This document shows positions 5,320-47,272 of a stretch of 64,000 bases of DNA, one piece after another. Numbering within the stretch: the stretch's first letter is position 1; every line of letters starts with the position of its first letter. The notes beneath the pieces were generated by a model. That model had not been told where the DNA came from and did not search any database. It saw only the letters and a list, made by a program, of their open reading frames with translations. Where the stretch lies: positions 1,612,001-1,676,000 of the forward strand of contig CP021222.1 in assembly GCA_003999685.1 (NCBI GenBank). Direction: 5' to 3'. The position numbers and the translations under genes were made by a program. This DNA is from Taiwanofungus camphoratus. Its lineage: Eukaryota; Basidiomycota; Agaricomycetes; Polyporales; Taiwanofungaceae.

Positions 5320-5340
5320 AGACTTCCGTGTGTTACTGTA

Positions 5341-6073: not shown

Positions 6074-6199
6074 TAACCGTTGATGTCCCCTGTTCATCGG
6101 GCTCCGATGCTTGCTGGCGTCGACATGACATGAGCTGGTTTTCATTAATGAACTACTTTTTGCTCATGAAACGGGTTGTGTAGATAGTCCTGAAGTTAC

Positions 6200-18500: not shown

Positions 18501-20108
18501 TGATGAGTCCCGTAGCCTCCTGGGCCCCGAATCGCGATTATTAGGAGCTTTCTAATCCCCCAACCGACCACTCTAAGACTCTCCTACAGCCTACGACAGG
18601 AGGGATAGGTCCCTATAATATTCCTAACGCCCCCTCTCCTTCCTAAACCCTCCTAACACCCTACGAAGTCTTGCAAAGTCACACGAGGTGCTACGAGATT
18701 TCGAATGCTAGACGCGAAGTCCCTAACTCCTGCTAAGTCCACTATCGGACACTGCCGGCCCTCCCATACTGTTCCATTGGATCTAGGTCCTATCTACTAC
18801 GTCACTCATCCCGGGCTTAGCTAAGAAGTCTTAGCTAAGTCTCTCCTAGCTCTTGTGATTGCAGCTACCTCCGATAGGCTCTGAAACGGTCCAAAGTTCC
18901 GGAAGTTGGACTTAGGAAGCCTTGTGCACCCCCATGGGTCTCGATCCTATGCCATAAGGTCATCCTAGGGCGTACCCATATGACCCTCCACCCAGTTAGG
19001 ACACCTCCTACCCCGATTAGGCCAAGTCCCGCTGCTAAGAACTTCGTGCGCTCTTAGCCCACTAAGATAGGTGATCACGGCGCATGGCTGCTCTCGGATA
19101 GTCATCCCGCCCTCGTGAATGAAGTTGGTCACCTTTCTACCGTTCGTAGTTCCCCTGTTTCAGTTCCTAATTAGTTCCTATCCCCCTCGTGTTCACTTCA
19201 GAGTCCATGCATTTTAGTACACATTTTGGACTCGTAAGGATCACTTCACGCAAGATTAGTTCACCTCACGCTCCCCTATTTAGTCAGAGGTAGTTTACTA
19301 TGTACGAGAGAGACCCCTCCGTGCACGCTTCTCTTTTTGGAATACCAGTTCCCCTGTAGCTCTGATCTCAGGAAAGCGCCGCAAGTACAACCTTAGGAAC
19401 GGTCCTAAGGTCCCTAAGTCTCCACCCCAGCTTCGTTTCAGTACCTTTGAACTACGTCTACACTCGCGATATATCTACAAACCACGTCTACGCTTCCCGA
19501 ACTACGCACTACGATCTACGAAAGTCGCCGTGACCTCGCACCCTTCAGCACCTCTTATAGCACCTATCCGGTGGGCCTCCGCCTTAGTTATACCCTTAGG
19601 CTCACGTTGCGTCATCCCTACGTCCTACGAATAGCCCTACGACTCTCCCATAGCCTTAGTTACAGGCTATAGTACATCTCCCTACGCCCTCGAACTCTCC
19701 AACCTCTCCTACAGGTCTCCTACGCTAGCCAAACCTCGTCCACCTCGCTCTAACAAACCTCTAAACCTTACGCCCTTTAGCTAACTCTAGCTAAAAGGAC
19801 TTCACAGCATCTACGAAGTCAGCTCGCACGATTTAGCTAAAACTTCGAAGGACTTCGCAAAACTTCGAAGAACTTCGCGTACTTCGGAGGGCCTCGCAAG
19901 GCCTTAGGGATAGTATAGCACTTAGGAACAAGATCCTGTTGTGCAGGACCCTTGACCCCTTACTCCCCTACTTACAAAAACAAGACATACAGGTTTCCCG
20001 GTATCATACAGGTTGTAGCTCCTACCCTCACACCCTCACAGTTATCACACTACCCCCAGCCACGTTGCGGAGCACTCCCTAGGTACCAGGGTCCCCTAGG
20101 TCGTATCA
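18501..20108 (+). repeat. 5' LTR of left Gypsy copy (1608 bp, shortened and mosaic)
   Basis: TGATGAGTCCCGTAGCC to CGTATCA. It is about 89 bp shorter than the 3' LTR because of a deletion near 19700. From 18501 to about 19310 it follows the inner (3') LTR; from about 19320 on it follows the outer LTR of the right copy, so it is a recombinant. It contains five ACTTCG units at 10-bp steps (19842-19887) and the start codon of the gag-protease ORF (19952). Confidence 0.85.
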
Positions 20109-21883
20109 CCGTGCCCGTGGGGGGCTCATCGCTAAAGATAGAGGATCTACAGACGTTCGCAGAGATCCTCACGAAGTCCGTAACCAGTGCGCTAGCTCCT
20201 GTTCTTGCGAACCAGCGACCCCCTCGATTGGACAGCTCGCGCGGCGAGCACACTCATGTGGAAGGCCAGTACTGTCACTATTGCGGGGACTTGGACTGCT
20301 GCACTAGGTGTTGCAAGCACATTGAGCAAGACATCAAGGATGGCAAGTGCAAGCGCAACCCAGATGGAAAGATAGTGCTGCCAAATGGAAATTTCGTACC
20401 CAGAACGATCCCAGGACGTACGATTCGCGATAGGCTTTACGAATATCATCGACGAAATGGCACGAATTCCTCCCCACAGCTCCTATTCGAAATCGACAAT
20501 CGCCTAAGTGTGCCCGCATTCTCACTATCCGCCAAGGATCATATAGCCGCTTTAGAACACGAGATTTACCAACTTCGGAGACGTCGCGAAGTCTTCGATG
20601 GTGTGGAAGTACCCCAGCACAGAAGGCAGGGTGCTCCTAACGCGCAGTCTGATCCTAGAAACCCACCCATAGCCAACGCACCTCCGATAGGACGCGCTCA
20701 GCATCCAGTAGTGGATCCCCCCGCTAACCAAGATGCCCCAGTAGCAGAGGCACAGAACCAGACCCCTCCTACCATTCTGAGGCGATCCAATTATCCTTCT
20801 AATTCAGCGCCGTCGCCTCCGAAGCCTGCGAATGCGTCTGATCCACACACGAACTCATCGGAGCATGCCTCGTCTACACCTAACGTACCAGCCCAACCAG
20901 CATCACAGGCAGCCATTCCACCGCCCACTCCATCAGTACATCCTTTCGCTAGTGCCCGAGATGCTACTTATGCACCTCCGAATCTTCGAAATTTCGCAGC
21001 AGCTCTGAAGCCTACAGCAGACAAGGGCAAGGACGTGGCCTATAAGACGATCACACCGGTTCATCAGGAGAAACTTACAGAGGAAATATTTGCGCGATCT
21101 ATGAGAACACCAGTGGTTACACTAACGCCCGAGGAGCTACTATCTATATCCCCGGATGTTCGTGCGCGATATCGCGAGGCTATCACCCCTAAACGTGTGC
21201 CTATGGATCCTAAGGCTACTCATATGGCTCAAATTACGGAACTCTCAGATGATCTCGCTTCTAAAACGACGCTAGCAACCTCCGAACTATCGTGCCACGG
21301 TGAACCCCTTGTCCCTGGTTCGACCATCATTCCAGACCCCTACGAAATGTACTTACGACATGTACCCGGAAAGGAAGAACCCTCCGAAATCATAGTAGCC
21401 CGCGACTCGAATTCTATCCGTTCTATCGAAGCCCTAATCGACAACAAAGAGCGAATCGAATGCATCGTGGACCCTGGGTCACAAGTGGTTGCGATGTCAG
21501 AGCAAGTCTGTCATGCCTTAGGGCTAATCTACGACCCTTCTGTGCAGCTAAATATGCAGTCTGCTAATGGCAGTATTGACCGTTCCTTAGGACTGGTTCG
21601 AAATGTCTCGTTCCAAGTAGGCGACATTGTGTTGTACCTACAGATGCACGTCATATGCAATCCCTCCTACGATATTCTTCTAGGCCGTCCCTTCGATGTG
21701 GTAACCGAGAGTGTGGTTAAGAACTTCGGAAACGAGGAGCAGACCATCACGATCGTATGCCCGAACACGAGCGAAGTCGCGACAATCCCTACGATGCCTC
21801 GAGGACGTCAAAAGTTCTTACCAGCCCATCATCATAGTTGCCCCCACGCAAACTCTTCAAATCATTTGCGATTGGGTTTTTAG
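19952..21883 (+). CDS. Gag-protease polyprotein of left Gypsy copy
   Basis: 643 aa. The first about 52 codons lie inside the 5' LTR. Beyond it comes SLKIEDLQTFAEILTKSV, then a Cys-rich knuckle region (CHYCGDLDCCTRCC), a long Pro/Ala/Ser linker, and a retropepsin-like protease (ECIVDPGSQVVAMSEQVCHA, later YDILLGRPFDV). The active site reads DPG, as in many Agaricomycete Gypsy elements, rather than D-S/T-G. The capsid domain that normally precedes the knuckle is not seen. The ORF ends TAG 21881-21883, directly after the heptamer GGGTTTT. It differs from the right copy by one residue (Leu against Pro at 21005-21007). Confidence 0.85.
   Translation: MTPYSPTYKNKTYRFPGIIQVVAPTLTPSQLSHYPQPRCGALPRYQGPLGRITVPVGGSSLKIEDLQTFAEILTKSVTSALAPVLANQRPPRLDSSRGEHTHVEGQYCHYCGDLDCCTRCCKHIEQDIKDGKCKRNPDGKIVLPNGNFVPRTIPGRTIRDRLYEYHRRNGTNSSPQLLFEIDNRLSVPAFSLSAKDHIAALEHEIYQLRRRREVFDGVEVPQHRRQGAPNAQSDPRNPPIANAPPIGRAQHPVVDPPANQDAPVAEAQNQTPPTILRRSNYPSNSAPSPPKPANASDPHTNSSEHASSTPNVPAQPASQAAIPPPTPSVHPFASARDATYAPPNLRNFAAALKPTADKGKDVAYKTITPVHQEKLTEEIFARSMRTPVVTLTPEELLSISPDVRARYREAITPKRVPMDPKATHMAQITELSDDLASKTTLATSELSCHGEPLVPGSTIIPDPYEMYLRHVPGKEEPSEIIVARDSNSIRSIEALIDNKERIECIVDPGSQVVAMSEQVCHALGLIYDPSVQLNMQSANGSIDRSLGLVRNVSFQVGDIVLYLQMHVICNPSYDILLGRPFDVVTESVVKNFGNEEQTITIVCPNTSEVATIPTMPRGRQKFLPAHHHSCPHANSSNHLRLGF
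21874..21880 (+). promoter_or_regulatory. Putative -1 ribosomal frameshift heptamer
   Basis: G GGT TTT lies in the gag frame immediately before the TAG stop and matches the X XXY YYZ slippery pattern. After a -1 slip the next codons read TTA GAT TTC, which is the pol frame. Any downstream stimulatory structure was not evaluated. The same heptamer sits at 38410-38416 (-) in the right copy. Confidence 0.7.
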
Positions 21884-24220
21884 ATTTCGAGGATTTGAGA
21901 AATCAAGGAGAGGTCGCCCTGGTCATTGAGTATGAATCTGATACCCCTAAAATCGTGTCTTTCGCTGCTGTAAATGCAGCAGATAACAATTCTGTTCCTG
22001 CGCTCTATCTATCAGTCTCTAACTCTGCGTCTAGCTATCTGCAGTCTCTCTATTTTAGCGAAACTTCGAAAGTCTCAGAAGGTTCTGCTGATCATACTAG
22101 GTGGCTATCTGGCTTTCTAGCAGCAGCAACACCGCACGAGGCTCCCCCCCTTTCACACGATAATCCGAATTCTCTCCCTATGCTTTCGCTTTCCGCCTCT
22201 AAAGACATATCCTCTATCCCCATTCCAGGTCCCAGGAACGCTACGAAGGTCACGAAGTCAGCCCGAAGACCTTCCCTTGCTCCTAATCCGATGGTATCCC
22301 TTCCTAAGTTGTCAGATTCTTCCCCTATTCCTACATTTGCAGCATCGAAAAAGAAGTACAAGCCTGTAGCGCTGAAGACTCGCCCTATTCTGGGAGCATT
22401 GGACGAACGATTCCGAATCATTCGCGAAATTAAAGGCGACCCTTTAGCGACGATGCCTACCCTATCACCGACTCCACCACCTTTCGAACCTACTTCGCGA
22501 TATACGCAAGAACGGCACGATCTCACGGACAAGCTACACAATGGAGACTTCCTACAACCAGCAGAGAGGGACCTCCTACATCACTTTATGACCCTACATG
22601 CTGATGCGTTCGCTTGGAATGACTCCGAAAGGGGGTGCTTCAAGCCGGAGTACTTCCCTCCCATCGACTTTCCGGTAGTACCGCACACGCCATGGGTACA
22701 AAAGAACATTCCTATCCCACCCGGAATCTACAACGAAGTGTGCGCAATCATCAAAAAGAAGATCACAGCTGGGGTCTACGAACCTTCAAATTCTTCCTAT
22801 CGTTCACGATGGTTTTGTGTGGTGAAGAAAGACGGAAAGTCCCTACGCCTTGTACATAGTCTGGAACCCCTAAACGCTGTCACGATTCAACACTCAGGCG
22901 TTCCCCCGACTCCCGAACACCTCGCAGAACAGTTCGGAGGACGACCTTGTGGTGCTATGTTGGATCTATATGTAGGCTATGATGAACGCTTGATAGCGGA
23001 GACTTCGCGCGATCTTACGACATTTCAAACACCTTTCGGAGCTATGAGATTGGTCACTCTACCTATGGGGTGGACCAACTCGGTCCCTATCTTCCACGAT
23101 GATGTTACGCACATCCTACAGCCCGAAATTCCTCACCTAACGGTTCCCTATATCGACGATGTTCTGGTCAAAGGCCCTGAAAGTTCGTACGATCTCGTAC
23201 CTATTTCGGAGAACCCAGGCATTCGAAAGTTTGTTTGGGAACATTTTACGAACCTCAATAGGATAGTCACACGCATGCGCTATGCAGGAGGTACCTTTTC
23301 TGGAGTTAAAAGCATTCTAATTGCCCGCGAAATCACCGTTGTAGGGCATCGGTGTACTCCAGAAGGTCGCCTACCGGACGAGTCTCGTGTTGCAGCCATA
23401 CGCAACTGGGGACCTTGTGCGACCCTATCTGACGTTCGAGCCTTTTTAGGAACCATTGGAGTAGTCCGTATCTTCATCCGAAACTTCGCACATCGTGCAG
23501 ATGCCTTAGTACGCCTAACGCGAAAGGCGGTATCCTTCGAATTTGGTCCAGCGCAAATCGCAGCGCAGGAGGACCTTAAGGATGCTTTGCTGTCCTCCCC
23601 AGCTCTCCGATCCATTAACTATTTGTCAGGTGCGCCCGTGATCTTAGCGGTTGACACCTCCTATATTGCAGTTGGCTATCACCTTTGCCAATGCGATGAG
23701 GACAACCCTAAAGTTCGATTCTACAATCGTTTCGGATCCATCACCCTAAATGATTGCGAGCGGAGGTTCTCGCAACCGAAGTTAGAGATCTACGGATTGT
23801 TTCGAGCACTTCGCGTACTACGAATCTACCTAATCGGAATTAGGAACCTTATAGTGGAAGTTGACGCACGATATATCAAAGGGATGTTGCAAAATCCGGA
23901 CATCGCACCCAGCGCGAGTATAAATCGCTGGATCGTATCGATTCTAACATTCCATTTCACCCTAGTACATGTACCAGGTACAATGCATGGACCAGACGGA
24001 CTATCAAGACGAACCCCCCAGCCAGGAGATCAAGAAGAGAGCAGCGAAGAAGACTTCGAAGACTGGATAGACAAAATGCACTCGTTTCTACATCACATCC
24101 AAGCCCCCCCTTCCCATCCTATACCATCGATTTCTACCCTATTCCCTTATGAATTCGCCTCTAACATTCCTATCACAACCCCCACACCTCCGATAGCTCC
24201 AACCTTCGCCTTCGAGTTGG

Positions 24221-24253
24221 CTGAGGACAGCCAAGGTTTCAATAGGGAGGAGG
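24221..24253 (+). promoter_or_regulatory. Candidate central polypurine tract (left copy)
   Basis: 33 bp, 30 identical to the 33 bp ending at the 3' LTR border (27739-27771), with 17 of 17 identity over tttcaatagggaggagg. It lies about 260 bp from the element's midpoint, in the linker between RNase H and integrase (coding FNREEE). The right copy has it at 36037-36069. Confidence 0.6.
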
Positions 24254-25692
24254 AGAGCTACGATAGCGTCCCAAGATCCGAAATGGCCAAAGAAGCTGAC
24301 GCAAGACTTGACTTAGTAGCAAAATTCCTACGAAGCCTCACGAGACCTGCCAACCTATCGGATTCAGAATACGAAGGTTTCGTAAAATACTGTCTTCTAT
24401 TCTTCCTCGACGAGGACATACTATGGCGCAAAGATCCACAAGGAGCTCACAAACTAGTTGTAAAGCAGGCAGATCGTCTACGAATCCTCCGAGAATGTCA
24501 CGATGCAGTCGCGCATCGAGGAATACACGCTACGAAGGTGCTGATTTCGGAGCGGTTTTGGTGGCCCTACCATCATATCGACATTGCCTGGTATGTTCAG
24601 AGCTGCCACCTATGCCAGATTCGCCAAGTGCGGCAGATCCTAATCCCTTCTACGGTCGCTACGCCCACTCCGATCTTCGCAAAGGTTCATATAGATACCA
24701 TGCATATGCCCCCTTCTAACGGGTTTAGGTACTTGGTGCAAGGCCGGTGTTCTCTAACCCAGTACCCCGAATTTTGGATGCTTCGCAAGGAGACGGCTAA
24801 AGCTTTGGCAGAATGGCTCTTCGAAGACTTTGTTTGTAGGTGGGGCGCGCTATCGGAGATAGTCACGGACAACGGCGCTCCCTTCGTAAAAGCCACGAAC
24901 TACATAGCGAAGAAGTACCAGCTACGACACATCTGAATTAGCGGATACAATTCGTGTGCCAACGGACTGGTGGAGAGGCCTCACTTCAATGTTAGGCAGG
25001 CTCTATTCAAGGCCGTGGATGGCGAAGAGTCTAAATGGTCTCAGGCAACGTACTCAGTCTTCTGGTCCGAAAGGATCACGACTCGAAAGCGCATGGGATG
25101 TTCGCCCTATTTCGCGGTCACTGGCACCCACCCTGTTATCCCTTTGGACGTCGTAGAGGCCACCTATATCCTTCCTCCTCCGTCCTCCATGCTATCCACG
25201 ACCGCTCTTATTGCACGTCGAGCTATCGCATTGCAAAAGCGGGTGACTCAGGTAGCGGAACTACATTCGAAGGTCTACAAAGTGCGAAGACAAGCTGCTC
25301 TGTGATTCGAAGAAAAGCATAAGCACTCCATCCACGATTTCAACTTCGAAAAGGGCGATTTAGTACTAATTCGCAACACACAGATAGAAAAGTCCCTAAA
25401 TCGGAAGATGCGACCTCGCTACCTCGGCCCAGTACTCGTAGTATCTAGGAACAAAGGTGGTGCTTATATCCTATGCGAATTGGATGGTTCGGTACTCGAC
25501 AGGCCTACGGCAGCCTTCCGAGTCATCCCCTACTTAGCGCGAAAAGCCCTCGAACTTCCTACCGAACTCTTGGACGTGTCGACGGAGCGACTTCGCGAAT
25601 TAGAGCTGACTACCACCCAAGGCGATGACGAAGAACTAGGATCGTATCCCTACTCTCCTAAGTCCGGCTCTAGTCCATCTGAAGCTCACTAA

Positions 25693-26226: not shown

Positions 26227-27604
26227 CTAAACCTCGGTCTCGGCATCTTCCTCATCCTGCTCGGACTCACCGGAGGGACCAGGATCAGTAGAGGAGGCGG
26301 CGACGCGACAGCGAGGAAGAGGGAGAGAACTCAAGTCGAGCGGCGCAGGCATACAACCGGTTAGGGCGGTTTCGGCACGATAGAGCCCCGAGATGTAGTC
26401 TTCGAGACGCATTGCACGACTCTCGGCCATCGCGCGGTCATACCAGAGGCCTTCGACAACGGCTTGATGCGCAGGGGTGAGGCCATCCAAGTATTCGGCG
26501 CCGTTAAGGGCCAGCGAGGCCTCGAGCGACATTGTAGGCGCAGGGGTCGACTTTGCCTTCTTGGACTCACGGGCGCGAGGCAGGGACACCTGAGGAGGTT
26601 GGCCCGCAGCTAGAGGACGTCCTAACATCAGCAATGATGCGATAACGAGGGCGCGAGGAGCCCTACCGCGCTTCGAAACGCGCACTCCACGCTCCTTACC
26701 GTCTACAGAAAACCCGCCCCAATAACACCCCTGCGACTCTCGCAGGCACTTACCACACTTCACGGCGCCTGCGGGGAGTTCGCACTCGAAGTCGGTGGTG
26801 TAGGTACTGCAGTGATCGCACTGGAAAGCAATAATAAGTCGCGAACAGCCACGAAAAAGAAGCGTACTCACCTTCGCATGAGTTCGCCTATGCTCCGCCG
26901 CCTTCGCCATGTTAGCCAGGGCTTCGGGCGTCGGAGGAGCCTTCGCCTTCGCAGTGTCCTTCCCCTGAGTAGGAGGGACCCCTACGAAGACACCCGAACT
27001 CGTGGACGAGGCGAGTTCGCCGACTTGGCCGCTAGAAACGGAGGCCATGATTGAGCTGGCCTGGGAAGCCGCGCGAGTAGAAGCTGCTGCCTTGGCCCGA
27101 GCTGAGGGACGACGAGTGTGCGATGAGGTACGACTAGGGGCCGGCGAGGGAGCAGAAGACGAAGCCGCAAGTTGGGCAGCGCGTTCAAGCGCAGCGCGCT
27201 CGACCGCCTCCACACGAAGACGTTCAGTCGCGCGGGCGAGTTCGCGCTGTGCGTCTCGCTCTTGAAGCATAGCAGCGAACTGAGGAAAGCCGGTGCGAGC
27301 CCACGAGATCCACAACGAGTCCGCAAGAGGGAGGATCGCCGTCAAACCTTCGACGATGGCGGCCTCTAAGGTAGGATCGGCGGGAGCGTTCGAAGCCTGG
27401 GACAGGACCTGCCAGTTACTCTATAACGCAGTGAAGACGATGTATCGAGCGATCGAGGAGGGTACGTACCACACGACGTCCTAAGTTCCTCGCCCACCGC
27501 AGGTAATCTTCGGCCTCCGCTACGCCCTCCGGACGAGAATTGAGGAGCGCCAGGACATCGCTGTGAGCTAGGCCAACACCATCAGAGTCCATATCGTCGA
27601 ACAT
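26227..27604 (-). CDS. Antisense accessory gene of the Gypsy element: cysteine-cluster protein, two introns
   Basis: Three exons, complement(26227..26820, 26872..27420, 27470..27604), give 425 aa. Introns of 49 and 51 bp have GT-AG borders; the second is a multiple of three and open, so retention also preserves the frame. The start (MFDDMDSDGVGLAHSDVLAL) was preferred over an upstream Met 51 nt earlier, whose extension looks like untranslated sequence. Features: an acidic N-terminus, a long Ala/Glu/Arg-rich helix (ERDAQRELARATERLRVEAV), a Ser/Pro/Ala linker, and a cluster CX2CX8CX8CX2CX6C (CDHCSTYTTDFEC, then CGKCLRESQGC) beginning just after intron 2. A basic stretch and an acidic C-terminus (EQDEEDAETEV) follow. 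The cluster resembles zinc-binding Cys-rich proteins seen in Agaricomycete mobile DNA; function unknown. Confidence 0.7.
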
Positions 27605-27771
27605 GATGGGGAAGGGAAAGGCAAAAGGGGAGGAGGAGAAAAAGATAAGAGGCACCCACGATTAGCTTCTATCAGGATATCGCCCGCTTCGCAGATCGGA
27701 TGCGATAGGCTACAAGTTCCCACGGTCGCGCACACTGACTGAGGACAGTCAGGATTTCAATAGGGAGGAGG
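27605..27771. promoter_or_regulatory. Antisense-gene upstream region and 3' polypurine tract
   Basis: The sequence aatagggaggagg ends at 27771, directly against the TG of the 3' LTR, which is the position of the plus-strand primer in LTR retroelements. The same 167 bp must contain the core promoter of the antisense gene unless that lies in the LTR. On the minus strand the region just before the ATG is pyrimidine-rich. Confidence 0.6.
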
Positions 27772-29468
27772 TGATGAGTCCCGTAGCCTCCTGGGCCCCG
27801 AATCGCGATTTTAGGAGCTTTCTGATCCCCCAACCGACCACTCTAAGACTCTCCTACAGCCTACGACAGGAGGGATAGGTCCCTATAATATTCCTAACGC
27901 CCCCTCTCCTTCCTAAACCCTCCTAACACCCTACGAAGTCTTGCAAAGTCACACGAGGTGCTACGAGATTTCGAATGCTAGACGCGAAGTCCCTAACTCC
28001 TGCTAAGTCCACTATCGGACACTGCCGGCCCTCCCATACTGTTCCATTGGATCTAGGTCCTATCTACTACGTCACTCATCCCGGGCTTAGCTAAGAAGTC
28101 TTAGCTAAGTCTCTCCTAGCTCTTGTGATTGCAGCTACCTCCGATAGGCTCTGAAACGGTCCAAAGTTCCGGAAGTTGGACTTAGGAAGCCTTGTGCACC
28201 CCCATGGGTCTCGATCCTATGCCATAAGGTCATCCTAGGGCGTACCCATATGACCCTCCACCCAGTTAGGACACCTCCTACCCCGATTAGGCCAAGTCCC
28301 GCTGCTAAGAACTTCGTGCGCTCTTAGCCCACTAAGATAGGTGATCACGGCGCATGGCTGCTCTCGGATAGTCATCCCGCCCTCGTGAATGAAGTTGGTC
28401 ACCTTTCTACCGTTCGTAGTTCCCCTGTTTCAGTTCCTAATTAGTTCCTATCCCCCTCGTGTTCACTTCAGAGTCCATGCATTTTAGTACACATTTTGGA
28501 CTCGTAAGGATCACTTCACGCAAGATTAGTTCACCTCACGCTCCCCTATTTAGTCAGAGGTAGTTTACTATGTACGAGAGAGACCCCTCAGTGTACGCTT
28601 CTCTCTTTGGAATACCAGTTCCCCTGTAGCTCCGATCTCAGGAAAGTGCCGCGAGTACAACCTTAGGAACTGTCCTAAGGTCCCTAAGTCTCCACCCCAG
28701 CTTCGTTTCAGTACCTTTGAACTATGTCTACGCTCGCGATATATCTACGAACTACGTCTACGCTTCCCGAACTACGCACTACGATCTACGAAGTCGCCGT
28801 GACTTCGTGCCCTTCAGCACCTCTTATAGCACCTATCCGATGGGCCTCCGCCTTAGTTATACCCTTAGGCTCACGTTGCGTCATCCCTACGTCCTACGAA
28901 TAACCCTACAACTCCCCCATAGCCTTCATTACAGGCTATAGTACATCCCTCTATGCCCTCGAACTCTCCGACCCACACCTCGAAGTCATCAGACACTTCA
29001 GAGCTTCCAGCAACCTCGTTCCCTCATTCCTATTCCAAGTATTAGCTCTCCGAACCATCCGACCTCTCCTACAAGTCTCCTACGCTAGCCAAACCTCGCC
29101 CACCTCGCTCTAACAAACCTCTAAACCTTATGCCCTTTAGCTAACTCTAGCTAAAAGGACTTCGCAGCATCTACGAAGTCAGCTCGTGCGATTTAGCTAA
29201 AACTTCGAAGGACTTCGCAGAATCTCGAAGAACTTCGTGTACTTCGGAGGGCCTCGCAAGGCCTTAGGGATAGTATAGCACTTAGGAACAAGATCCTGTT
29301 GTGCAGGACCCTTGACCCCTTACTCCCCTACTTACAAAAACAAGACATACAGGTTTTCCGGTATCATACAGGTTGTAGCTCCTACCCTCACACCCTCACA
29401 GTTATCACACTACCCCCAGCCACGTTGTGGAGCACTCCCTAGGTACCAGGGTCCCCTAGGTCGTATCA
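27772..29468 (+). repeat. 3' LTR of left Gypsy copy (1697 bp)
   Basis: TGATGAGTCCCG to CGTATCA, nearly identical to the inner LTR of the right copy (30822-32518, inverted). It retains the about 89 bp missing in the 5' LTR. It is followed directly by LINE RNase H sequence (acgtgagatc). Confidence 0.85.
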
Positions 29469-30821
29469 ACGTGAGATCTTGTGGCCTTCGTTGGTCCTCC
29501 ATCGAGTTCTGTCGCTTTCTTGGCTAACTGGTCCACTAGTTCGTTGCCTCGTATGCCTTTATGACCTGGGGTCCATTCTACTTCAATGGTGTTCTCTGGG
29601 TGTGCCTCTAGGAAGGCGATCGTGATTTCTCGGAATATCCTTGCATGTCCTTGGCCTGGTCCTGCCTTTGGTTCGAAGATTGTCTTGATAGCTGAAGTGT
29701 TATCTGCATAGAAATGTAAGTGCTTTATGTCTGGGTCAGTTTCTCGAATATATGTGGCAATGTCTCTCGCTGCCCATGCTAGACCGGCAAGCTCTGCATC
29801 GTATACTTCTGCTTTTTTACCTAGCCCAATCTTCCTCGAGGAGATTGGTATGTGTTGCTTTAGGGCTACGTACCCCACCCCCACTCTTCTGCTTCCTCTT
29901 GTCTCCAGCATGGAGCTGTCTGAATACACAAGTAAGTGTTGGGGTGAGTTAGTGAACACTCCTACCTTTAGGATGTGTTCTAGTGAGGCGTCGTCCTTTG
30001 ATGTGCCTTTTGTCGCTGGTGTGACTTTTAGGCGGCCATTGAAGTCTGGTATTGTCTTCTTTCATGGCGGTAGGCATAGGGGGAGAATTCTTTCGTCTAG
30101 AGGGTCCAATTGGAGTGCCAGTTTGCATAGTCGTGTTGTCTTTGTTGGTTTTCTTCTTCTTGGTGTAGGTTTTATGTGTGTTGGTAGCGGTGGGGCTTCA
30201 ACTTCGAGGATCCTCCATGTTTGCAGTAATCTGTGTAGAATAGAACTGTAGGGCATTAGTTTGTTCAATCGAATAGCTGCTCTGTCACTCATTAGTTCCA
30301 AATGTTGTCTGATAGAGGAGATGGCTGCTTCTATCTCCAATGCTATAATAGGGGTTGTGCGGAAGGCCGCACAGATTAGTCGAAGAGCCTGTCATTGTAC
30401 TCATTCCAGGCAGTTTACATGGAGTTGCTTCCCTGTCTGCCATGCCGCGCTAGCGTATGTCATCGTCGGCCTGACACATGCTATATACAGTGTCCTCAGG
30501 TGTTCTTGCGAAAGGCCTCAAACTGTGTTTGCGAGCATCCCCAAACCATTTACTGTTTTTTCTGCTCTTCCTGCTATCTGTTTTATGTGAAAATCAAATG
30601 TCAGTCGCCTATTGAGATATACCCCTAGCCATTTGGTGTTCGTCTCTGCCTTTATTTCTCTCTCATCCCCATTGACGTCCGGGAGTGAGATAGAAGGCGA
30701 GTCTCCTGATTTGTGTCTGCGCTTGAAATAATGCATTAGTTCTCGTTTTACCATGTCTGGTGCGAGCCCAATGCTCTCTAGCCATTTGTTGACAACTTTG
30801 TAGCCTATCTTGAGGATACGC
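29469..30821 (-). mobile_element. LINE segment 4: end of RT region and RNase H
   Basis: The minus strand first encodes RILKIGYKVVNKWLESIGLA, then the RT C-terminal part (NTKWLGVYLNRRLTFDFHIK), then a complete-looking RNase H with its acidic residues (LVYSDSS, DAELAGLAW, HFYADNTSA, GNELVDQLAK). It breaks off at KATRSHV. It is the 1.35-kb spacer of the big inverted repeat. In-frame stops lie between the RT end and RNase H, so it is inactive. The outermost 4 bp at each end are candidate target duplications. Confidence 0.85.
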
Positions 30822-32518
30822 TGATACGACCTAGGGGACCCTGGTACCTAGGGAGTGCTCCACAACGTGGCTGGGGGTAGTGTGATAACTGTGAGGGTGT
30901 GAGGGTAGGAGCTACAACCTGTATGATACCGGAAAACCTGTATGTCTTGTTTTTGTAAGTAGGGGAGTAAGGGGTCAAGGGTCCTGCACAACAGGATCTT
31001 GTTCCTAAGTGCTATACTATCCCTAAGGCCTCGCGAGGCCCTCCGAAGTACGTGAAGTTCTTCGAGATTTTGCGAAGTCCTTCGAAGTTTTAGCTAAATC
31101 GCACGAGCTGACTTCGTAGATGCTGCGAAGTCCTTTTAGCTAGAGTTAGCTAAAGGGCATAAGGTTTAGAGGTTTGTTAGAGCGAGGTGGGCGAGGTTTG
31201 GCTAGCGTAGGAGACTTGTAGGAGAGGTCGGATGGTTCGGAGAGCTAATACTTGGAATAGGAATGAGGGAACGAGGTTGCTGGAAGCTCTGAAGTGTCTG
31301 ATGACTTCGAGGTGTGGGTCGGAGAGTTCGAGGGCATAGAGGGATGTACTATAGCCTGTAATGAAGGCTATGGGGGAGTTGTAGGGTTATTCGTAGGACG
31401 TAGGGATGACGCAACGTGAGCCTAAGGGTATAACTAAGGCGGAGGCCCATCGGATAGGTGCTATAAGAGGTGCTGAAGGGCACGAAGTCACGGCGACTTC
31501 GTAGATCGTAGTGCGTAGTTCGGGAAGCGTAGACGTAGTTCGTAGATATATCGCGAGCGTAGACATAGTTCAAAGGTACTGAAACGAAGCTGGGGTGGAG
31601 ACTTAGGGACCTTAGGACAGTTCCTAAGGTTGTACTCGCGGCACTTTCCTGAGATCGGAGCTACAGGGGAACTGGTATTCCAAAGAGAGAAGCGTACACT
31701 GAGGGGTCTCTCTCGTACATAGTAAACTACCTCTGACTAAATAGGGGAGCGTGAGGTGAACTAATCTTGCGTGAAGTGATCCTTACGAGTCCAAAATGTG
31801 TACTAAAATGCATGGACTCTGAAGTGAACACGAGGGGGATAGGAACTAATTAGGAACTGAAACAGGGGAACTACGAACGGTAGAAAGGTGACCAACTTCA
31901 TTCACGAGGGCGGGATGACTATCCGAGAGCAGCCATGCGCCGTGATCACCTATCTTAGTGGGCTAAGAGCGCACGAAGTTCTTAGCAGCGGGACTTGGCC
32001 TAATCGGGGTAGGAGGTGTCCTAACTGGGTGGAGGGTCATATGGGTACGCCCTAGGATGACCTTATGGCATAGGATCGAGACCCATGGGGGTGCACAAGG
32101 CTTCCTAAGTCCAACTTCCGGAACTTTGGACCGTTTCAGAGCCTATCGGAGGTAGCTGCAATCACAAGAGCTAGAAGAGACTTAGCTAAGACTTCTTAGC
32201 TAAGCCCGGGATGAGTGACGTAGTAGATAGGACCTAGATCCAATGGAACAGTATGGGAGGGCCGGCAGTGTCCGATAGTGGACTTAGCAGGAGTTAGGGA
32301 CTTCGCGTCTAGCATTCGAAATCTCGTAGCACCTCGTGTGACTTTGCAAGACTTCGTAGGGTGTTAGGAGGGTTTAGGAAGGAGAGGGGGCGTTAGGAAT
32401 ATTATAGGGACCTATCCCTCCTGTCGTAGGCTGTAGGAGAGTCTTAGAGTGGTCGGTTGGGGGATCAGAAAGCTCCTAAAATCGCGATTCGGGGCCCAGG
32501 AGGCTACGGGACTCATCA
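30822..32518 (-). repeat. 3' LTR (inner) of right Gypsy copy
   Basis: 1697 bp, near-identical inverse of 27772-29468. The few differences I found are C/T or G/A type, for example cctagc against ttctagc near 32174 and changes near 31040-31075. Confidence 0.85.
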
Positions 32519-32551
32519 CCTCCTCCCTATTGAAATCCTGACTGTCCTCAG
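32519..32551 (-). promoter_or_regulatory. 3' polypurine tract of right copy
   Basis: Inverse of 27739-27771; the purine tract abuts the inner LTR end at 32518. Confidence 0.65.
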
Positions 32552-32685
32552 TCAGTGTGCGCGACCGTGGGAACTTGTAGCCTATCGCATCCGATCTGCG
32601 AAGCGGGCGATATCCTGATAGAAGCTAATCGTGGGTGCCTCTTATCTTTTTCTCCTCCTCCCCTTTTGCCTTTCCCTTCCCCATC

Positions 32686-34063
32686 ATGTTCGACGATATG
32701 GACTCTGATGGTGTTGGCCTAGCTCACAGCGATGTCCTGGCGCTCCTCAATTCTCGTCCGGAGGGCGTAGCGGAGGCCGAAGATTACCTGCGGTGGGCGA
32801 GGAACTTAGGACGTCGTGTGGTACGTACCCTCCTCGATCGCTCGATACATCGTCTTCACTGCGTTATAGAGTAACTGGCAGGTCCTGTCCCAGGCTTCGA
32901 ACGCTCCCGCCGATCCTACCTTAGAGGCCGCCATCGTCGAAGGTTTGACGGCGATCCTCCCTCTTGCGGACTCGTTGTGGATCTCGTGGGCTCGCACCGG
33001 CTTTCCTCAGTTCGCTGCTATGCTTCAAGAGCGAGACGCACAGCGCGAACTCGCCCGCGCGACTGAACGTCTTCGTGTGGAGGCGGTCGAGCGCGCTGCG
33101 CTTGAACGCGCTGCCCAACTTGCGGCTTCGTCTTCTGCTCCCTCGCCGGCCCCTAGTCGTACCTCATCGCACACTCGTCGTCCCTCAGCTCGGGCCAAGG
33201 CAGCAGCTTCTACTCGCGCGGCTTCCCAGGCCAGCTCAATCATGGCCTCCGTTTCTAGCGGCCAAGTCGGCGAACTCGCCTCGTCCACGAGTTCGGGTGT
33301 CTTCGTAGGGGTCCCTCCTACTCAGGGGAAGGACACTGCGAAGGCGAAGGCTCCTCCGACGCCCGAAGCCCTGGCTAACATGGCGAAGGCGGCGGAGCAT
33401 AGGCGAACTCATGCGAAGGTGAGTACGCTTCTTTTTCGTGGCTGTTCGCGACTTATTATTGCTTTCCAGTGCGATCACTGCAGTACCTACACCACCGACT
33501 TCGAGTGCGAACTCCCCGCAGGCGCCGTGAAGTGTGGTAAGTGCCTGCGAGAGTCGCAGGGGTGTTATTGGGGCGGGTTTTCTGTAGACGGTAAGGAGCG
33601 TGGAGTGCGCGTTTCGAAGCGCGGTAGGGCTCCTCGCGCCCTCGTTATCGCATCATTGCTGATGTTAGGACGTCCTCTAGCTGCGGGCCAACCTCCTCAG
33701 GTGTCCCTGCCTCGCGCCCGTGAGTCCAAGAAGGCAAAGTCGACCCCTGCGCCTACAATGTCGCTCGAGGCCTCGCTGGCCCTTAACGGCGCCGAATACT
33801 TGGATGGCCTCACCCCTGCGCATCAAGCCGTTGTCGAAGGCCTCTGGTATGACCGCGCGATGGCCGAGAGTCGTGCAATGCGTCTCGAAGACTACATCTC
33901 GGGGCTCTATCGTGCCGAAACCGCCCTAACCGGTTGTATGCCTGCGCCGCTCGACTTGAGTTCTCTCCCTCTTCCTCGCTGTCGCGTCGCCGCCTCCTCT
34001 ACTGATCCTGGTCCCTCCGGTGAGTCCGAGCAGGATGAGGAAGATGCCGAGACCGAGGTTTAG
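32686..34063 (+). CDS. Antisense accessory gene of right Gypsy copy
   Basis: Exons 32686..32820, 32870..33418 and 33470..34063, 425 aa. The translated exons are identical to the left copy, including both GT-AG introns and the CX2CX8CX8CX2CX6C cluster. It is antisense to pol of its own element. Intact frame and splice sites in both copies contrast with the broken pol genes, although the copies are so similar that this is one observation rather than two. Confidence 0.7.
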
Positions 34064-34597
34064 AAGGTGGGGGGGGCTCATAGTTTGTCGTCTCGCCCAT
34101 TCCGTATCTGTCGCACCAATGTGCTGTATTCTCTCTCGTTGCGCGTCCCTTTGCTAGGGACCTTCTTCAATATGTGTACAATAGTCTGAATATAGTGGAC
34201 GCAAACATCGTCCTTGTGAAAAGGTTCCTAAGTGCGTGAAGTAACCAAACAACACAGAGATGAATTAGAAGACTTAGGGGGATAAAATGCGCTCATTTAG
34301 GCTCAGTAAATCATCATGGCCTTGAAGGGCATAAGGCCCCTCGCGCAATCTTCGCTCCGCTCGGCGTTTTAGGAGCCTTTAGAACGATATCGCAACTTCG
34401 TGAGTTGAATCACTATAGTAAAAAGTCGGAGATGTTGTAAGTAAAAATTCGTAGACATTTGGGACTTCGTAGCTGTCAAAACTGAGTGGGGGCTTGTTGG
34501 GGAAAGTAAAACATGACCAAAGGGTAAGCGAAAAGTAAAATGGACGTAGCGTAATCTTAGCTAAAGTCGGGGTATCATCGATTGCTCCTCTGATTCT
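34064..34597. other. Spacer between antisense gene and pol, right copy
   Basis: Inverse of 25693-26226. No feature was recognised. Confidence 0.5.
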
Positions 34598-37500
34598 TTA
34601 GTGAGCTTCAGATGGACTAGAGCCGGACTTAGGAGAGTAGGGATACGATCCTAGTTCTTCGTCATCGCCTTGGGTGGTAGTCAGCTCTAATTCGCGAAGT
34701 CGCTCCGTCGACACGTCCAAGAGTTCGGTAGGAAGTTCGAGGGCTTTTCGCGCTAAGTAGGGGATGACTCGGAAGGCTGCCGTAGGCCTGTCGAGTACCG
34801 AACCATCCAATTCGCATAGGATATAAGCACCACCTTTGTTCCTAGATACTACGAGTACTGGGCCGAGGTAGCGAGGTCGCATCTTCCGATTTAGGGACTT
34901 TTCTATCTGTGTGTTGCGAATTAGTACTAAATCGCCCTTTTCGAAGTTGAAATCGTGGATGGAGTGCTTATGCTTTTCTTCGAATCACAGAGCAGCTTGT
35001 CTTCGCACTTTGTAGACCTTCGAATGTAGTTCCGCTACCTGAGTCACCCGCTTTTGCAATGCGATAGCTCGACGTGCAATAAGAGCGGTCGTGGATAGCA
35101 TGGAGGACGGAGGAGGAAGGATATAGGTGGCCTCTACGACGTCCAAAGGGATAACAGGGTGGGTGCCAGTGACCGCGAAATAGGGCGAACATCCCATGCG
35201 CTTTCGAGTCGTGATCCTTTCGGACCAGAAGACTGAGTACGTTGCCTGAGACCATTTAGACTCTTCGCCATCCACGGCCTTGAATAGAGCCTGCCTAACA
35301 TTGAAGTGAGGCCTCTCCACCAGTCCGTTGGCACACGAATTGTATCCGCTAATTCAGATGTGTCGTAGCTGGTACTTCTTCGCTATGTAGTTCGTGGCTT
35401 TTACGAAGGGAGCGCCGTTGTCCGTGACTATCTCCGATAGCGCGCCCCACCTACAAACAAAGTCTTCGAAGAGCCATTCTGCCAAAGCTTTAGCCGTCTC
35501 CTTGCGAAGCATCCAAAATTCGGGGTACTGGGTTAGAGAACACCGGCCTTGCACCAAGTACCTAAACCCGTTAGAAGGGGGCATATGCATGGTATCTATA
35601 TGAACCTTTGCGAAGATCGGAGTGGGCGTAGCGACCGTAGAAGGGATTAGGATCTGCCGCACTTGGCGAATCTGGCATAGGTGGCAGCTCTGAACATACC
35701 AGGCAATGTCGATATGATGGTAGGGCCACCAAAACCGCTCCGAAATCAGCACCTTCGTAGCGTGTATTCCTCGATGCGCGACTGCATCGTGACATTCTCG
35801 GAGGATTCGTAGACGATCTGCCTGCTTTACAACTAGTTTGTGAGCTCCTTGTGGATCTTTGCGCCATAGTATGTCCTCGTCGAGGAAGAATAGAAGACAG
35901 TATTTTACGAAACCTTCGTATTCTGAATCCGATAGGTTGGCAGGTCTCGTGAGGCTTCGTAGGAATTTTGCTACTAAGTCAAGTCTTGCGTCAGCTTCTT
36001 TGGCCATTTCGGATCTTGGGACGCTATCGTAGCTCTCCTCCTCCCTATTGAAACCTTGGCTGTCCTCAGCCAACTCGAAGGCGAAGGTTGGAGCTATCGG
36101 AGGTGTGGGGGTTGTGATAGGAATGTTAGAGGCGAATTCATAAGGGAATAGGGTAGAAATCGATGGTATAGGATGGGAAGGGGGGGCTTGGATGTGATGT
36201 AGAAACGAGTGCATTTTGTCTATCCAGTCTTCGAAGTCTTCTTCGCTGCTCTCTTCTTGATCTCCTGGCTGGGGGGTTCGTCTTGATAGTCCGTCTGGTC
36301 CATGCATTGTACCTGGTACATGTACTAGGGTGAAATGGAATGTTAGAATCGATACGATCCAGCGATTTATACTCGCGCTGGGTGCGATGTCCGGATTTTG
36401 CAACATCCCTTTGATATATCGTGCGTCAACTTCCACTATAAGGTTCCTAATTCCGATTAGGTAGATTCGTAGTACGCGAAGTGCTCGAAACAATCCGTAG
36501 ATCTCTAACTTCGGTTGCGAGAACCTCCGCTCGCAATCATTTAGGGTGATGGATCCGAAACGATTGTAGAATCGAACTTTAGGGTTGTCCTCATCGCATT
36601 GGCAAAGGTGATAGCCAACTGCAATATAGGAGGTGTCAACCGCTAAGATCACGGGCGCACCTGACAAATAGTTAATGGATCGGAGAGCTGGGGAGGACAG
36701 CAAAGCATCCTTAAGGTCCTCCTGCGCTGCGATTTGCGCTGGACCAAATTCGAAGGATACCGCCTTTCGCGTTAGGCGTACTAAGGCATCTGCACGATGT
36801 GCGAAGTTTCGGATGAAGATACGGACTACTCCAATGGTTCCTAAAAAGGCTCGAACGTCAGATAGGGTCGCACAAGGTCCCCAGTTGCGTATGGCTGCAA
36901 CACGAGACTCGTCCGGTAGGCGACCTTCTGGAGTACACCGATGCCCTACAACGGTGATTTCGCGGGCAATTAGAATGCTTTTAACTCCAGAAAAGGTACC
37001 TCCTGCATAGCGCATGCGTGTGACTATCCTATTGAGGTTCGTAAAATGTTCCCAAACAAACTTTCGAATGCCTGGGTTCTCCGAAATAGGTACGAGATCG
37101 TACGAACTTTCAGGGCCTTTGACCAGAACATCGTCGATATAGGGAACCGTTAGGTGAGGAATTTCGGGCTGTAGGATGTGCGTAACATCATCGTGGAAGA
37201 TAGGGACCGAGTTGGTCCACCCCATAGGTAGAGTGACCAATCTCATAGCTCCGAAAGGTGTTTGAAATGTCGTAAGATCGCGCGAAGTCTCCGCTATCAA
37301 GCGTTCATCATAGCCTACATATAGATCCAACATAGCACCACAAGGTCGTCCTCCGAACTGTTCTGCGAGGTGTTCGGGAGTCGGGGGAACGCCTGAGTGT
37401 TGAATCGTGACAGCGTTTAGGGGTTCCAGACTATGTACAAGGCGTAGGGACTTTCCGTCTTTCTTCACCACACAAAACCATCGTGAACGATAGGAAGAAT

Positions 37501-38452
37501 TTGAAGGTTCGTAGACCCCAGCTGTGATCTTCTTTTTGATGATTGCGCACACTTCGTTGTAGATTCCGGGTGGGATAGGAATGTTCTTTTGTACCCATGG
37601 CGTGTGCGGTACTACCGGAAAGTCGATGGGAGGGAAGTACTCCGGCTTGAAGCACCCCCTTTCGGAGTCATTCCAAGCGAACGCATCAGCATGTAGGGTC
37701 ATAAAGTGATGTAGGAGGTCCCTCTCTGCTGGTTGTAGGAAGTCTCCATTGTGTAGCTTGTCCGTGAGATCGTGCCGTTCTTGCGTATATCGCGAAGTAG
37801 GTTCGAAAGGTGGTGGAGTCGGTGATAGGGTAGGCATCGTCGCTAAAGGGTCGCCTTTAATTTCGCGAATGATTCGGAATCGTTCGTCCAATGCTCCCAG
37901 AATAGGGCGAGTCTTCAGCGCTACAGGCTTGTACTTCTTTTTCGATGCTGCAAATGTAGGAATAGGGGAAGAATCTGACAACTTAGGAAGGGATACCATC
38001 GGATTAGGAGCAAGGGAAGGTCTTCGGGCTGACTTCGTGACCTTCGTAGCGTTCCTGGGACCTGGAATGGGGATAGAGGATATGTCTTTAGAGGCGGAAA
38101 GCGAAAGCATAGGGAGAGAATTCGGATTATCGTGTGAAAGGGGGGGAGCCTCGTGCGGTGTTGCTGCTGCTAGAAAGCCAGATAGCCACCTAGTATGATC
38201 AGCAGAACCTTCTGAGACTTTCGAAGTTTCGCTAAAATAGAGAGACTGCAGATAGCTAGACGCAGAGTTAGAGACTGATAGATAGAGCGCAGGAACAGAA
38301 TTGTTATCTGCTGCATTTACAGCAGCGAAAGACACGATTTTAGGGGTATCAGATTCATACTCAATGACCAGGGCGACCTCTCCTTGATTTCTCAAATCCT
38401 CGAAATCTAAAAACCCAATCGCAAATGATTTGAAGAGTTTGCGTGGGGGCAA
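34598..38452 (-). pseudogene. Pol of right Gypsy copy, same two nonsense codons
   Basis: Same domains as the left copy. The TGA codons lie at 35354-35356 and 34985-34987, exactly at the mirrored positions. The RT, RNase H and integrase translations show no differences from the left copy in the segments compared. Confidence 0.88.
36037..36069 (-). promoter_or_regulatory. Candidate central polypurine tract (right copy)
   Basis: Inverse of 24221-24253, identical in sequence. Confidence 0.6.
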
Positions 38453-40338
38453 CTATGATGATGGGCTGGTAAGAACTTTTGACGTCCTCGAGGCATCGTA
38501 GGGATTGTCGCGACTTCGCTCGTGTTCGGGCATACGATCGTGATGGTCTGCTCCTCGTTTCCGAAGTTCTTAACCACACTCTCGGTTACCACATCGAAGG
38601 GACGGCCTAGAAGAATATCGTAGGAGGGATTGCATATGACGTGCATCTGTAGGTACAACACAATGTCGCCTACTTGGAACGAGACATTTCGAACCAGTCC
38701 TAAGGAACGGTCAATACTGCCATTAGCAGACTGCATATTTAGCTGCACAGAAGGGTCGTAGATTAGCCCTAAGGCATGACAGACTTGCTCTGACATCGCA
38801 ACCACTTGTGACCCAGGGTCCACGATGCATTCGATTCGCTCTTTGTTGTCGATTAGGGCTTCGATAGAACGGATAGAATTCGAGTCGCGGGCTACTATGA
38901 TTTCGGAGGGTTCTTCCTTTCCGGGTACATGTCGTAAGTACATTTCGTAGGGGTCTGGAATGATGGTCGAACCAGGGACAAGGGGTTCACCGTGGCACGA
39001 TAGTTCGGAGGTTGCTAGCGTCGTTTTAGAAGCGAGATCATCTGAGAGTTCCGTAATTTGAGCCATATGAGTAGCCTTAGGATCCATAGGCACACGTTTA
39101 GGGGTGATAGCCTCGCGATATCGCGCACGAACATCCGGGGATATAGATAGTAGCTCCTCGGGCGTTAGTGTAACCACTGGTGTTCTCATAGATCGCGCAA
39201 ATATTTCCTCTGTAAGTTTCTCCTGATGAACCGGTGTGATCGTCTTATAGGCCACGTCCTTGCCCTTGTCTGCTGTAGGCTTCGGAGCTGCTGCGAAATT
39301 TCGAAGATTCGGAGGTGCATAAGTAGCATCTCGGGCACTAGCGAAAGGATGTACTGATGGAGTGGGCGGTGGAATGGCTGCCTGTGATGCTGGTTGGGCT
39401 GGTACGTTAGGTGTAGACGAGGCATGCTCCGATGAGTTCGTGTGTGGATCAGACGCATTCGCAGGCTTCGGAGGCGACGGCGCTGAATTAGAAGGATAAT
39501 TGGATCGCCTCAGAATGGTAGGAGGGGTCTGGTTCTGTGCCTCTGCTACTGGGGCATCTTGGTTAGCGGGGGGATCCACTACTGGATGCTGAGCGCGTCC
39601 TATCGGAGGTGCGTTGGCTATGGGTGGGTTTCTAGGATCAGACTGCGCGTTAGGAGCACCCTGCCTTCTGTGCTGGGGTACTTCCACACCATCGAAGACT
39701 TCGCGACGTCTCCGAAGTTGGTAAATCTCGTGTTCTAAAGCGGCTATATGATCCTTGGCGGATAGTGAGAATGCGGGCACACTTAGGCGATTGTCGATTT
39801 CGAATAGGAGCTGTGGGGAGGAATTCGTGCCATTTCGTCGATGATATTCGTAAAGCCTATCGCGAATCGTACGTCCTGGGATCGTTCTGGGTACGAAATT
39901 TCCATTTGGCAGCACTATCTTTCCATCTGGGTTGCGCTTGCACTTGCCATCCTTGATGTCTTGCTCAATGTGCTTGCAACACCTAGTGCAGCAGTCCAAG
40001 TCCCCGCAATAGTGACAGTACTGGCCTTCCACATGAGTGTGCTCGCCGCGCGAGCTGTCCAATCGAGGGGGTCGCTGGTTCGCAAGAACAGGAGCTAGCG
40101 CACTGGTTACGGACTTCGTGAGGATCTCTGCGAACGTCTGTAGATCCTCTATCTTTAGCGATGAGCCCCCCACGGGCACGGTGATACGACCTAGGGGACC
40201 CTGGTACCTAGGGAGTGCTCCGCAACGTGGCTGGGGGTAGTGTGATAACTGTGAGGGTGTGAGGGTAGGAGCTACAACCTGTATGATACCGGGAAACCTG
40301 TATGTCTTGTTTTTGTAAGTAGGGGAGTAAGGGGTCAA
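38407..40338 (-). CDS. Gag-protease polyprotein of right Gypsy copy
   Basis: 643 aa, identical to the left copy except Pro in place of Leu (codon CCG at 39283-39285 against CTG on the left, a CpG-type transition). It starts inside the outer LTR and ends at the GGGTTTT heptamer (38410-38416). Confidence 0.85.
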   Translation of the reverse strand: MTPYSPTYKNKTYRFPGIIQVVAPTLTPSQLSHYPQPRCGALPRYQGPLGRITVPVGGSSLKIEDLQTFAEILTKSVTSALAPVLANQRPPRLDSSRGEHTHVEGQYCHYCGDLDCCTRCCKHIEQDIKDGKCKRNPDGKIVLPNGNFVPRTIPGRTIRDRLYEYHRRNGTNSSPQLLFEIDNRLSVPAFSLSAKDHIAALEHEIYQLRRRREVFDGVEVPQHRRQGAPNAQSDPRNPPIANAPPIGRAQHPVVDPPANQDAPVAEAQNQTPPTILRRSNYPSNSAPSPPKPANASDPHTNSSEHASSTPNVPAQPASQAAIPPPTPSVHPFASARDATYAPPNLRNFAAAPKPTADKGKDVAYKTITPVHQEKLTEEIFARSMRTPVVTLTPEELLSISPDVRARYREAITPKRVPMDPKATHMAQITELSDDLASKTTLATSELSCHGEPLVPGSTIIPDPYEMYLRHVPGKEEPSEIIVARDSNSIRSIEALIDNKERIECIVDPGSQVVAMSEQVCHALGLIYDPSVQLNMQSANGSIDRSLGLVRNVSFQVGDIVLYLQMHVICNPSYDILLGRPFDVVTESVVKNFGNEEQTITIVCPNTSEVATIPTMPRGRQKFLPAHHHSCPHANSSNHLRLGF

Positions 40339-46585: not shown

Positions 46586-47272
46586 ACGGTTCTATGATGA
46601 GAATAAGGTCAAAGCTCTCCACACCTACCGCCGCATTGAGGAGTGCGTGGATTGCTTGATTTTGTATGTTTGCATTGAGTTGGAGTATTCGGATTGGTCT
46701 TGTGTTCGCTGTCTCACACATATTACCTCGTCGTCAGTGATCATCGGGTGTTGCGTTGCAGACCTGTTTGCCTGCCATGATCTCTTGATATTTGCTACTG
46801 CAGCTGCAAAGTTGCCGTCAGCTTCCTTTAGTGCACCTGCTTTCATTTCCATGTCCATCTCTGAGAATCGGAGGTCAAGGGAATGTAGTGTGTTAATCTG
46901 CTGTTCATCCTCCAGTTCTTGGAAGTGGTTCAGTTGCTGTTGTGAGTATTTACCTGTCTTACCGGGTATTCAGATTGTCATCTTTTCTTTTGTTCTTTCG
47001 TCTGTGCTTTCTGATGCCTTCTCTTTTCGATTCTGTTTGTTAGCTGTTACTGTGTTCCATTCGTTTGAGATCTTTGCTCCTCCCACTGATGGCTTCGTTG
47101 GTTGTGACTTTGGGATGCCCACTTTATGTGATCAAACTGGGCAGTTTCTAAAGTTAGCTGTATGGGGTCCTTTACATGCTACACAAACGTAGTCATGTTT
47201 GCACTTGTCTAGGTCCATTGCATTGTCGCCATATTCTGCTGTGCACTCTCGACATATATGGTCAGTCTCCAC
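46586..47272 (-). mobile_element. LINE segment 2: ORF1 zinc knuckles and start of endonuclease
   Basis: The minus strand encodes CCHC-type residues (HICRECTAEYGDNAMDLDKC, then YVCVACKGPHTANFRNCP), a Lys-rich C-terminus of ORF1, and the beginning of ORF2 with QSTHALLNA-like and ILIIEP motifs. Numerous stops, many of the type expected from C-to-T change. Confidence 0.75.

Follow-up and report, generated by a model that had tools for sequence, protein, structure and literature searches.

In the window, by which we mean the whole stretch of 64,000 nucleotides of the Taiwanofungus camphoratus genome analysed here, a Gypsy retrotransposon carries a gene of four exons on the strand opposite to pol, between pol and the 3' LTR. 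This gene is under purifying selection, is found in two diverged Gypsy families, and has a relative that stands on its own elsewhere in the genome of the host. Taking all evidence together, we consider it probable that it represents an accessory antisense gene of a Gypsy lineage which encodes a trans-acting nuclear regulator, and that the standalone gene is a copy taken over by the host.

The retrotransposon and its two copies in the window

The first Gypsy copy extends from 18501 to about 29468-29472 and is bounded by LTRs of approximately 1.6-1.7 kb, which start with TGATGAG and end with TATCA. Its plus strand contains the 5' LTR (18501-20108), a gag-protease open frame with an aspartyl protease domain (19952-21883), a pol frame matching RNase H-like and integrase H2C2 models (21838-25692), and the 3' LTR (27772-29468). 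Among the Pfam matches listed at an E value of 1 for the pol frame between 21838 and 24936, the RNase H-like and integrase models were present but no reverse transcriptase model. The antisense gene occupies 26227-27604 on the minus strand, with its ATG at 27604.

A second, inverted copy of the element is located at 30818-41788 on the minus strand, and its antisense gene is thus found on the plus strand (32686-34063). Both copies were noted in the preliminary description as carriers of the gene, and indeed the two genes are identical; however, the elements differ at only 27 of 10,972 aligned positions and therefore have to be counted as one witness rather than as independent evidence. Across the two inverted copies, the 5' and 3' LTR stretches differ by about 2-4% and an indel, and the match ends at the element ends. 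Plain retrotransposition is expected to yield identical LTRs, and given the near identity of the inverted copies, conversion or recombination may have been involved in the copying. Elsewhere in the window, more LTR-related stretches are present at 42175-43560 and 47270-48985 (68-95% identity in ungapped pieces), and an inverted repeat with arms of 334 nt that are 99% complementary and separated by a loop of 69 nt is located at 5339-6075. A burst of Gypsy elements has been published for T. camphoratus (PMC8865532).

Structure of the antisense gene

The gene consists of four exons on the minus strand (exon 1, 27470-27604; exon 2, 26872-27420; exon 3, 26667-26820; exon 4 including the stop codon, 26227-26609), which are separated by introns of 49 nt (27421-27469, phase 0), 51 nt (26821-26871, phase 0) and 57 nt (26610-26666, phase 1), and it encodes a product of 406 amino acids. 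In the preliminary description, two GT-AG introns and a product of 425 amino acids had been proposed. Both introns are retained in our model, as is the TTATAG acceptor of intron 1 that leads to the length of 425 amino acids if intron 3 is not removed, whereas the third intron, which is in frame, had been missed. The CX2CX8CX8CX2CX6C cysteine spacing described for the window gene, which is encoded by exon 3, was correct.

This gene model was evaluated in an alignment of 38 gene copies, comprising the window gene, 32 further near copies (L013-L040 and L042-L045) and five older copies (L049-L053); four partial copies (L046-L048, L054) as well as L001 and L003-L012, which repeat aligned copies or the window's other copy, were excluded. 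The AG of the intron 1 acceptor is present in 38 of 38 copies, and an alternative acceptor, GGCAG, was dropped as it occurs in the window copy only. Intron 3 starts with GT and ends with AG in all 38 copies, and the 38 rows displayed each have a CTGAT/CTAAT motif within it. If intron 3 is read as codons, its pN/pS amounts to 0.71 among 32 near copies and to 0.73 against four diverged copies (L049, L050, L051 and L053; L052 was left out), compared to 0.13 and 0.23, respectively, for the exons, and a coding nature of intron 3 was rejected on these grounds. In addition, the standalone homologue described below has an annotated intron at exactly this position. The splice sites, the relaxed pN/pS and this annotation together lead to the four-exon model and a product of 406 amino acids.

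Considering the three introns together, all 38 copies preserve five of the six splice dinucleotides, and 37 preserve the sixth, an acceptor that is lost in L052. When six copies were compared, 25 of 80 background GT and 31 of 71 background AG dinucleotides of the gene were conserved in all six, as opposed to five of the six at splice sites. Loss of an intron was observed in none of the 38 copies.

Distribution of the gene among Gypsy elements

The gene is not peculiar to the window. A DNA search of the genome yielded 75 candidates, of which 40, including the two in the window, were scored, and all 40 span positions 1-1378 of the gene; a search at the protein level gave a list of 106 matches to single exons. 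Likewise, among the best 36 of 672 pol candidates, the gene lies 547-552 nt beyond pol and in opposite orientation in every scored copy (36/36). Four genes of this family (family 1) at positions 627302, 637770, 648239 and 658707 of contig C10 (C10:627302-659921) recur at intervals of about 10,469 bases, suggesting that elements with common LTRs are arrayed in tandem there. At C1:4190455 and C1:4197667 (L046 and L047), the two parts of a family 1 copy are separated by approximately 6.5 kb of other DNA, with the break in the antisense gene falling at intron 2 or adjacent to it.

When the standalone protein was used as a query, weak matches were obtained on contigs C7, C9, C10 and C12, and these led to a second Gypsy family. 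At the C9 locus (L055), pol is encoded on the minus strand and is 66-74% identical to the pol of family 1, and the antisense gene is found beyond its end on the plus strand; for family 2, the antisense-to-pol arrangement is documented at this one locus. The gene at L055 contains four introns, three of which correspond in position and phase (0, 0, 1) to those of family 1 while one is extra, and the cysteine spacing is the same as in family 1. Its protein shows 25-42% identity to the other homologues, with the higher values restricted to the cluster, and this low identity compared to that of pol points to a much more rapid evolution of the antisense gene. The second exon of the family 2 gene matches at least 16 places in the genome with 69-99% identity and at least 15 more with 42-58%. 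In seven family 2 genes analyzed (L055 and six more), the three common introns keep GT and AG in every case, and the extra intron lacks a clear acceptor in L056-L058. Three of the seven genes are broken, by one stop codon each in L058 and L061, and by two stop codons and a length change in L060.

As a single control, we included an unrelated Gypsy element (L062) with a chromodomain recognised by eye, and no match to the family 1 or the family 2 gene was detected in it; the standalone protein gave a match at chance level only (E 0.079). At this locus (L062:1-4401), where the element has an end that looks chromodomain-like by eye, the integrase end is followed after about 1.2 kb by another gag of equal orientation, an arrangement reminiscent of tandemly arrayed elements. 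Further weak matches to the standalone gene or to a Daedalea quercina protein were seen at C7:741463-741801 and C3:893230-893364 and may represent additional paralogues.

Outside the genome analyzed, homologue searches of a set of 5.8 billion proteins returned, among the matches listed, only proteins of T. camphoratus, one of them 94% identical to about half of the window protein, and of D. quercina (DAEQUDRAFT_770994, 768768 and 767789) together with pieces from one further source (lgn) resembling the standalone gene. In two of these searches the list comprised approximately 8000 candidates (7997 in one case), so that distant relatives might have been missed.

A related standalone gene and the direction of gene flow

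The standalone gene is located at C3:1164016-1165346 (L041:6480-7810, minus strand) and encodes a protein of 385 amino acids, which matches a T. camphoratus protein annotated in another assembly (P0003, locus tag AcV5) at all but two residues. Identity to the window protein amounts to 34-35% along most of the sequence, and all three introns and their phases are common to both genes; intron 3 of the standalone gene has GC-AG borders in this assembly. Within 10 kb around the gene, we found no gag or pol match (tblastn, E 1), no repeat of at least 30 nt and no LTR, and blastn with the element recovered three pieces of only 19-64 nt. The neighbouring frames match the Pfam models SSF (transporter) and RNA12, and a further neighbour looks, by eye, like an FG-repeat protein.

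A tree computed from 12 proteins contains a branch (support 100/99) that separates the standalone protein and family 1 from family 2 and D. quercina. This tree is unrooted and has long branches, the standalone protein was flagged as a long row whose position is uncertain, and support for family 2 is 93/90. The standalone gene is most simply explained as a copy of the element gene that would have been taken over by the host, introns included.

The main rival to this explanation assumes the opposite direction of transfer, i.e. that a cellular, intron-bearing gene was taken up in antisense orientation by an ancestral Gypsy element and that the standalone gene is the surviving donor. The standalone branch is indeed short (0.34, compared to 1.05 for the family 1 stem), and both the location of the gene among host frames and the three common introns speak in favour of this reading. 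However, the standalone protein groups with family 1 and not outside both families in the unrooted tree, and capture thus requires either a move between families or a double uptake at the same place. Moreover, the matches listed and scored did not include a full-length ortholog from any species other than T. camphoratus. We therefore consider capture from the host unlikely, albeit the most serious of the alternatives.

Selection acts on the encoded protein

An open reading frame is by itself weak evidence for function, as 47% of neutral simulations with 54 substitutions remained without a stop codon. Pooled over 32 near copies (L038 was left out), the uncorrected pN/pS is 0.154 with three exons and 0.133 with four. 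In comparisons with or among the five older copies, omega ranges from 0.11 to 0.31 at dS values of up to 1.37. For the same near pairs, omega amounts to 0.15-0.34 for pol, 0.11-0.21 for gag (four copies) and 0.13-0.34 for the antisense gene; the constraint on the antisense gene is thus similar to that on gag and pol. In family 2, omega is 0.19-0.28 between diverged subfamilies (dS 0.9-1.3) and 0.34-0.58 in six close pairs (dS 0.08-0.25), indicating weaker constraint in the latter. In ten near pairs (L042-L045 and the window copy), dS of the antisense gene is 1.2 to 2.9 times that of pol, an excess for which a higher GC content is one possible cause.

The comparison of dN and dS across copies and the search for homologues in other Gypsy families had both been suggested in the preliminary description, which proposed an antisense accessory gene maintained by the element. 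Both bear out this proposal: the ratio is well below 1 and a homologue is located antisense beyond pol in a second family, in addition to the presence of the gene in all 36 scored copies and to the retention of its introns in the alignment. In contrast, the notion that the gene stays open while pol is broken applies to the window copy, whose pol contains early stop codons at 24934 and 25303, and not to the family, where pol is free of stop codons in 27 of the 36 scored best copies and the antisense gene is intact in 25 and broken in 8 of 33 near copies. The aligned near copies are mostly the best-scoring ones, which introduces a bias towards intact genes, and 26 near full-length places lie outside the alignment.

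One might argue that the product of the locus is an antisense RNA rather than a protein, with regulation being achieved through pairing or small RNAs; regulation of retroelements by antisense RNA is discussed in a review (PMC7264820). Yet the constraint tracks codons, with a pN/pS of 0.13 in exons against 0.71 in the in-frame intron 3, and splice sites and cysteine cluster are kept across families, which makes this improbable. It is still less credible that the gene is a captured passenger without use for the element and open only through the youth of its copies. The near copies, it is true, differ by only 4-6% from the window gene and 8 of 33 are broken, but the low omega at dS values of up to 1.37 already contradicts this, and so does the homologue in the second family. 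Finally, a sense open frame of 155-159 codons overlaps the gene in three of five elements examined (L043, L044, L045), but with no sense frame of at least 150 codons in the window copy and in L042, and with variation concentrated at third codon positions of the antisense frame, a sense-strand gene as the cause of the open frame is ruled out for all practical purposes.

A possible mechanism

Our preferred reading, that of an accessory antisense gene encoding a regulator, can be outlined as follows. Transcription would start from an antisense promoter located within the 3' LTR or next to it, and the transcript would be spliced. An intron in antisense orientation goes unrecognised when the genomic RNA is spliced and is thus copied back into DNA. 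The introns of this gene, being read backwards in the genomic RNA, would therefore remain unspliced and survive reverse transcription, and intron retention in all 38 aligned copies agrees with such an escape from splicing. The gene might already have been carried by the ancestor from which the two element families descend, and the host might have taken over a copy together with its introns.

The presumed promoter region is the interval of 167 nt between the ATG and the 3' LTR (27605-27771, minus strand). A scan of 600 nt on the promoter side found no TATA-type match, one CCAAT at 446 nt, and a pyrimidine-rich leader before the ATG. A promoter of its own near the 3' LTR and a nucleic-acid-binding function, both put forward in the preliminary description, are inferences that we share.

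The predicted product would combine N-terminal helices, a coiled coil, a metal cluster of six cysteines, basic stretches and an acidic tail. The CX2CX8CX8CX2CX6C arrangement is found in family 1 and family 2. The first loop is X8 in both families and in the standalone gene, and X9 in D. quercina. Neither the whole proteins nor the clusters reached the cut-off of any Pfam family (best match below the cut-off: zf-HYPF on a D. quercina cluster, E 0.0084), and sequence searches of the PDB returned matches at chance level (E 0.18-0.7) or nothing. The structure model of P0003 is too poor to support a fold search (mean pLDDT 52, cluster blocks 25-30) and shows, at this low confidence, N-terminal helices, a long helix at residues 87-149 and C-terminal helices, with the cluster undefined. 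Most likely, the protein is a trans-acting nuclear factor that binds nucleic acid and regulates either the expression of the element or its nuclear steps. A standalone gene taken over by the host may in turn act on the elements, for example in copy-number control or as a silencing factor in competition with the version encoded by the element; we put this forward as a tentative possibility.

The antisense placement of the gene provides a way for introns to persist through rounds of reverse transcription. At the same time, the introns are a strand-specific mark by which spliced antisense mRNA can be distinguished from genomic RNA and from DNA, so that expression and function are directly testable. 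The three intron positions and phases shared by the standalone gene and the element gene make the direction of gene flow testable by synteny in polypores. With dozens of copies of the element in a medicinal mushroom, the standalone relative offers a handle on the origin of such backwards genes.

Comparison with known systems

The cysteine cluster invites comparison with the Zn2Cys6 (Gal4-type) factors, with which the protein shares six cysteines, two halves each led by CX2C, a CX2CX6C end and nearby basic stretches. The Gal4-type spacing is CX2CX6CX5-12CX2CX6-8C, with a first loop of X6. The first loop in the present protein is X8, and the cluster is situated in the middle of the protein; as there is in addition no match to PF00172 and no solved relative, we do not assign the protein to this class.

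Among fungi, the closest parallel is brtn, reportedly described by Zhao et al. in 2011 (cited in PMC8365987) as an antisense gene of Boty-like Gypsy elements in Botrytis cinerea. In both cases a fungal Gypsy element carries an extra gene antisense to gag-pol. The available text of a survey of fungal LTR elements uses neither the word antisense nor the word opposite (PMC3248453), and among the titles and abstracts we consulted (papers behind subscription were outside the scope) we recognised no fungal or basidiomycete antisense case with introns or a standalone relative.

In plants, the antisense ORFs (aORFs) of Grande (gene23), RIRE2 and PvRetro13 share the place, the orientation and the gag-pol-like conservation of the present gene according to a review (PMC7264820), in which the Grande gene23 product is described as nuclear and the gene as having its own promoter and an antisense transcript. 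Like the aORF-3R of that kind, the gene of T. camphoratus lies antisense between pol and the 3' LTR (in the window), accompanies all 36 scored pol copies and is conserved similarly to gag-pol. The aORFs of Retand elements contain a TRP28 domain (PF04195), for which the present gene has no match in Pfam-A, and we therefore do not assign it to this group; furthermore, it has introns and a standalone relative, whereas similarity to TRP28 outside transposable elements is reported to be absent for Retand and the word intron does not appear in the main text of that study as available (PMC11963269). The review likewise states, in the part available, that aORF-like genes are missing outside transposable elements (PMC7264820), which sets the gene described here, with its standalone relative, apart. 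The origin and function of antisense accessory ORFs have been called unknown (PMC7264820; PMC11963269 for TRP28). Antisense accessory ORFs as such are thus a known kind, represented by Grande and Retand in plants and by brtn in Botrytis; the new part of the T. camphoratus system is its introns together with its standalone relative in the host genome.
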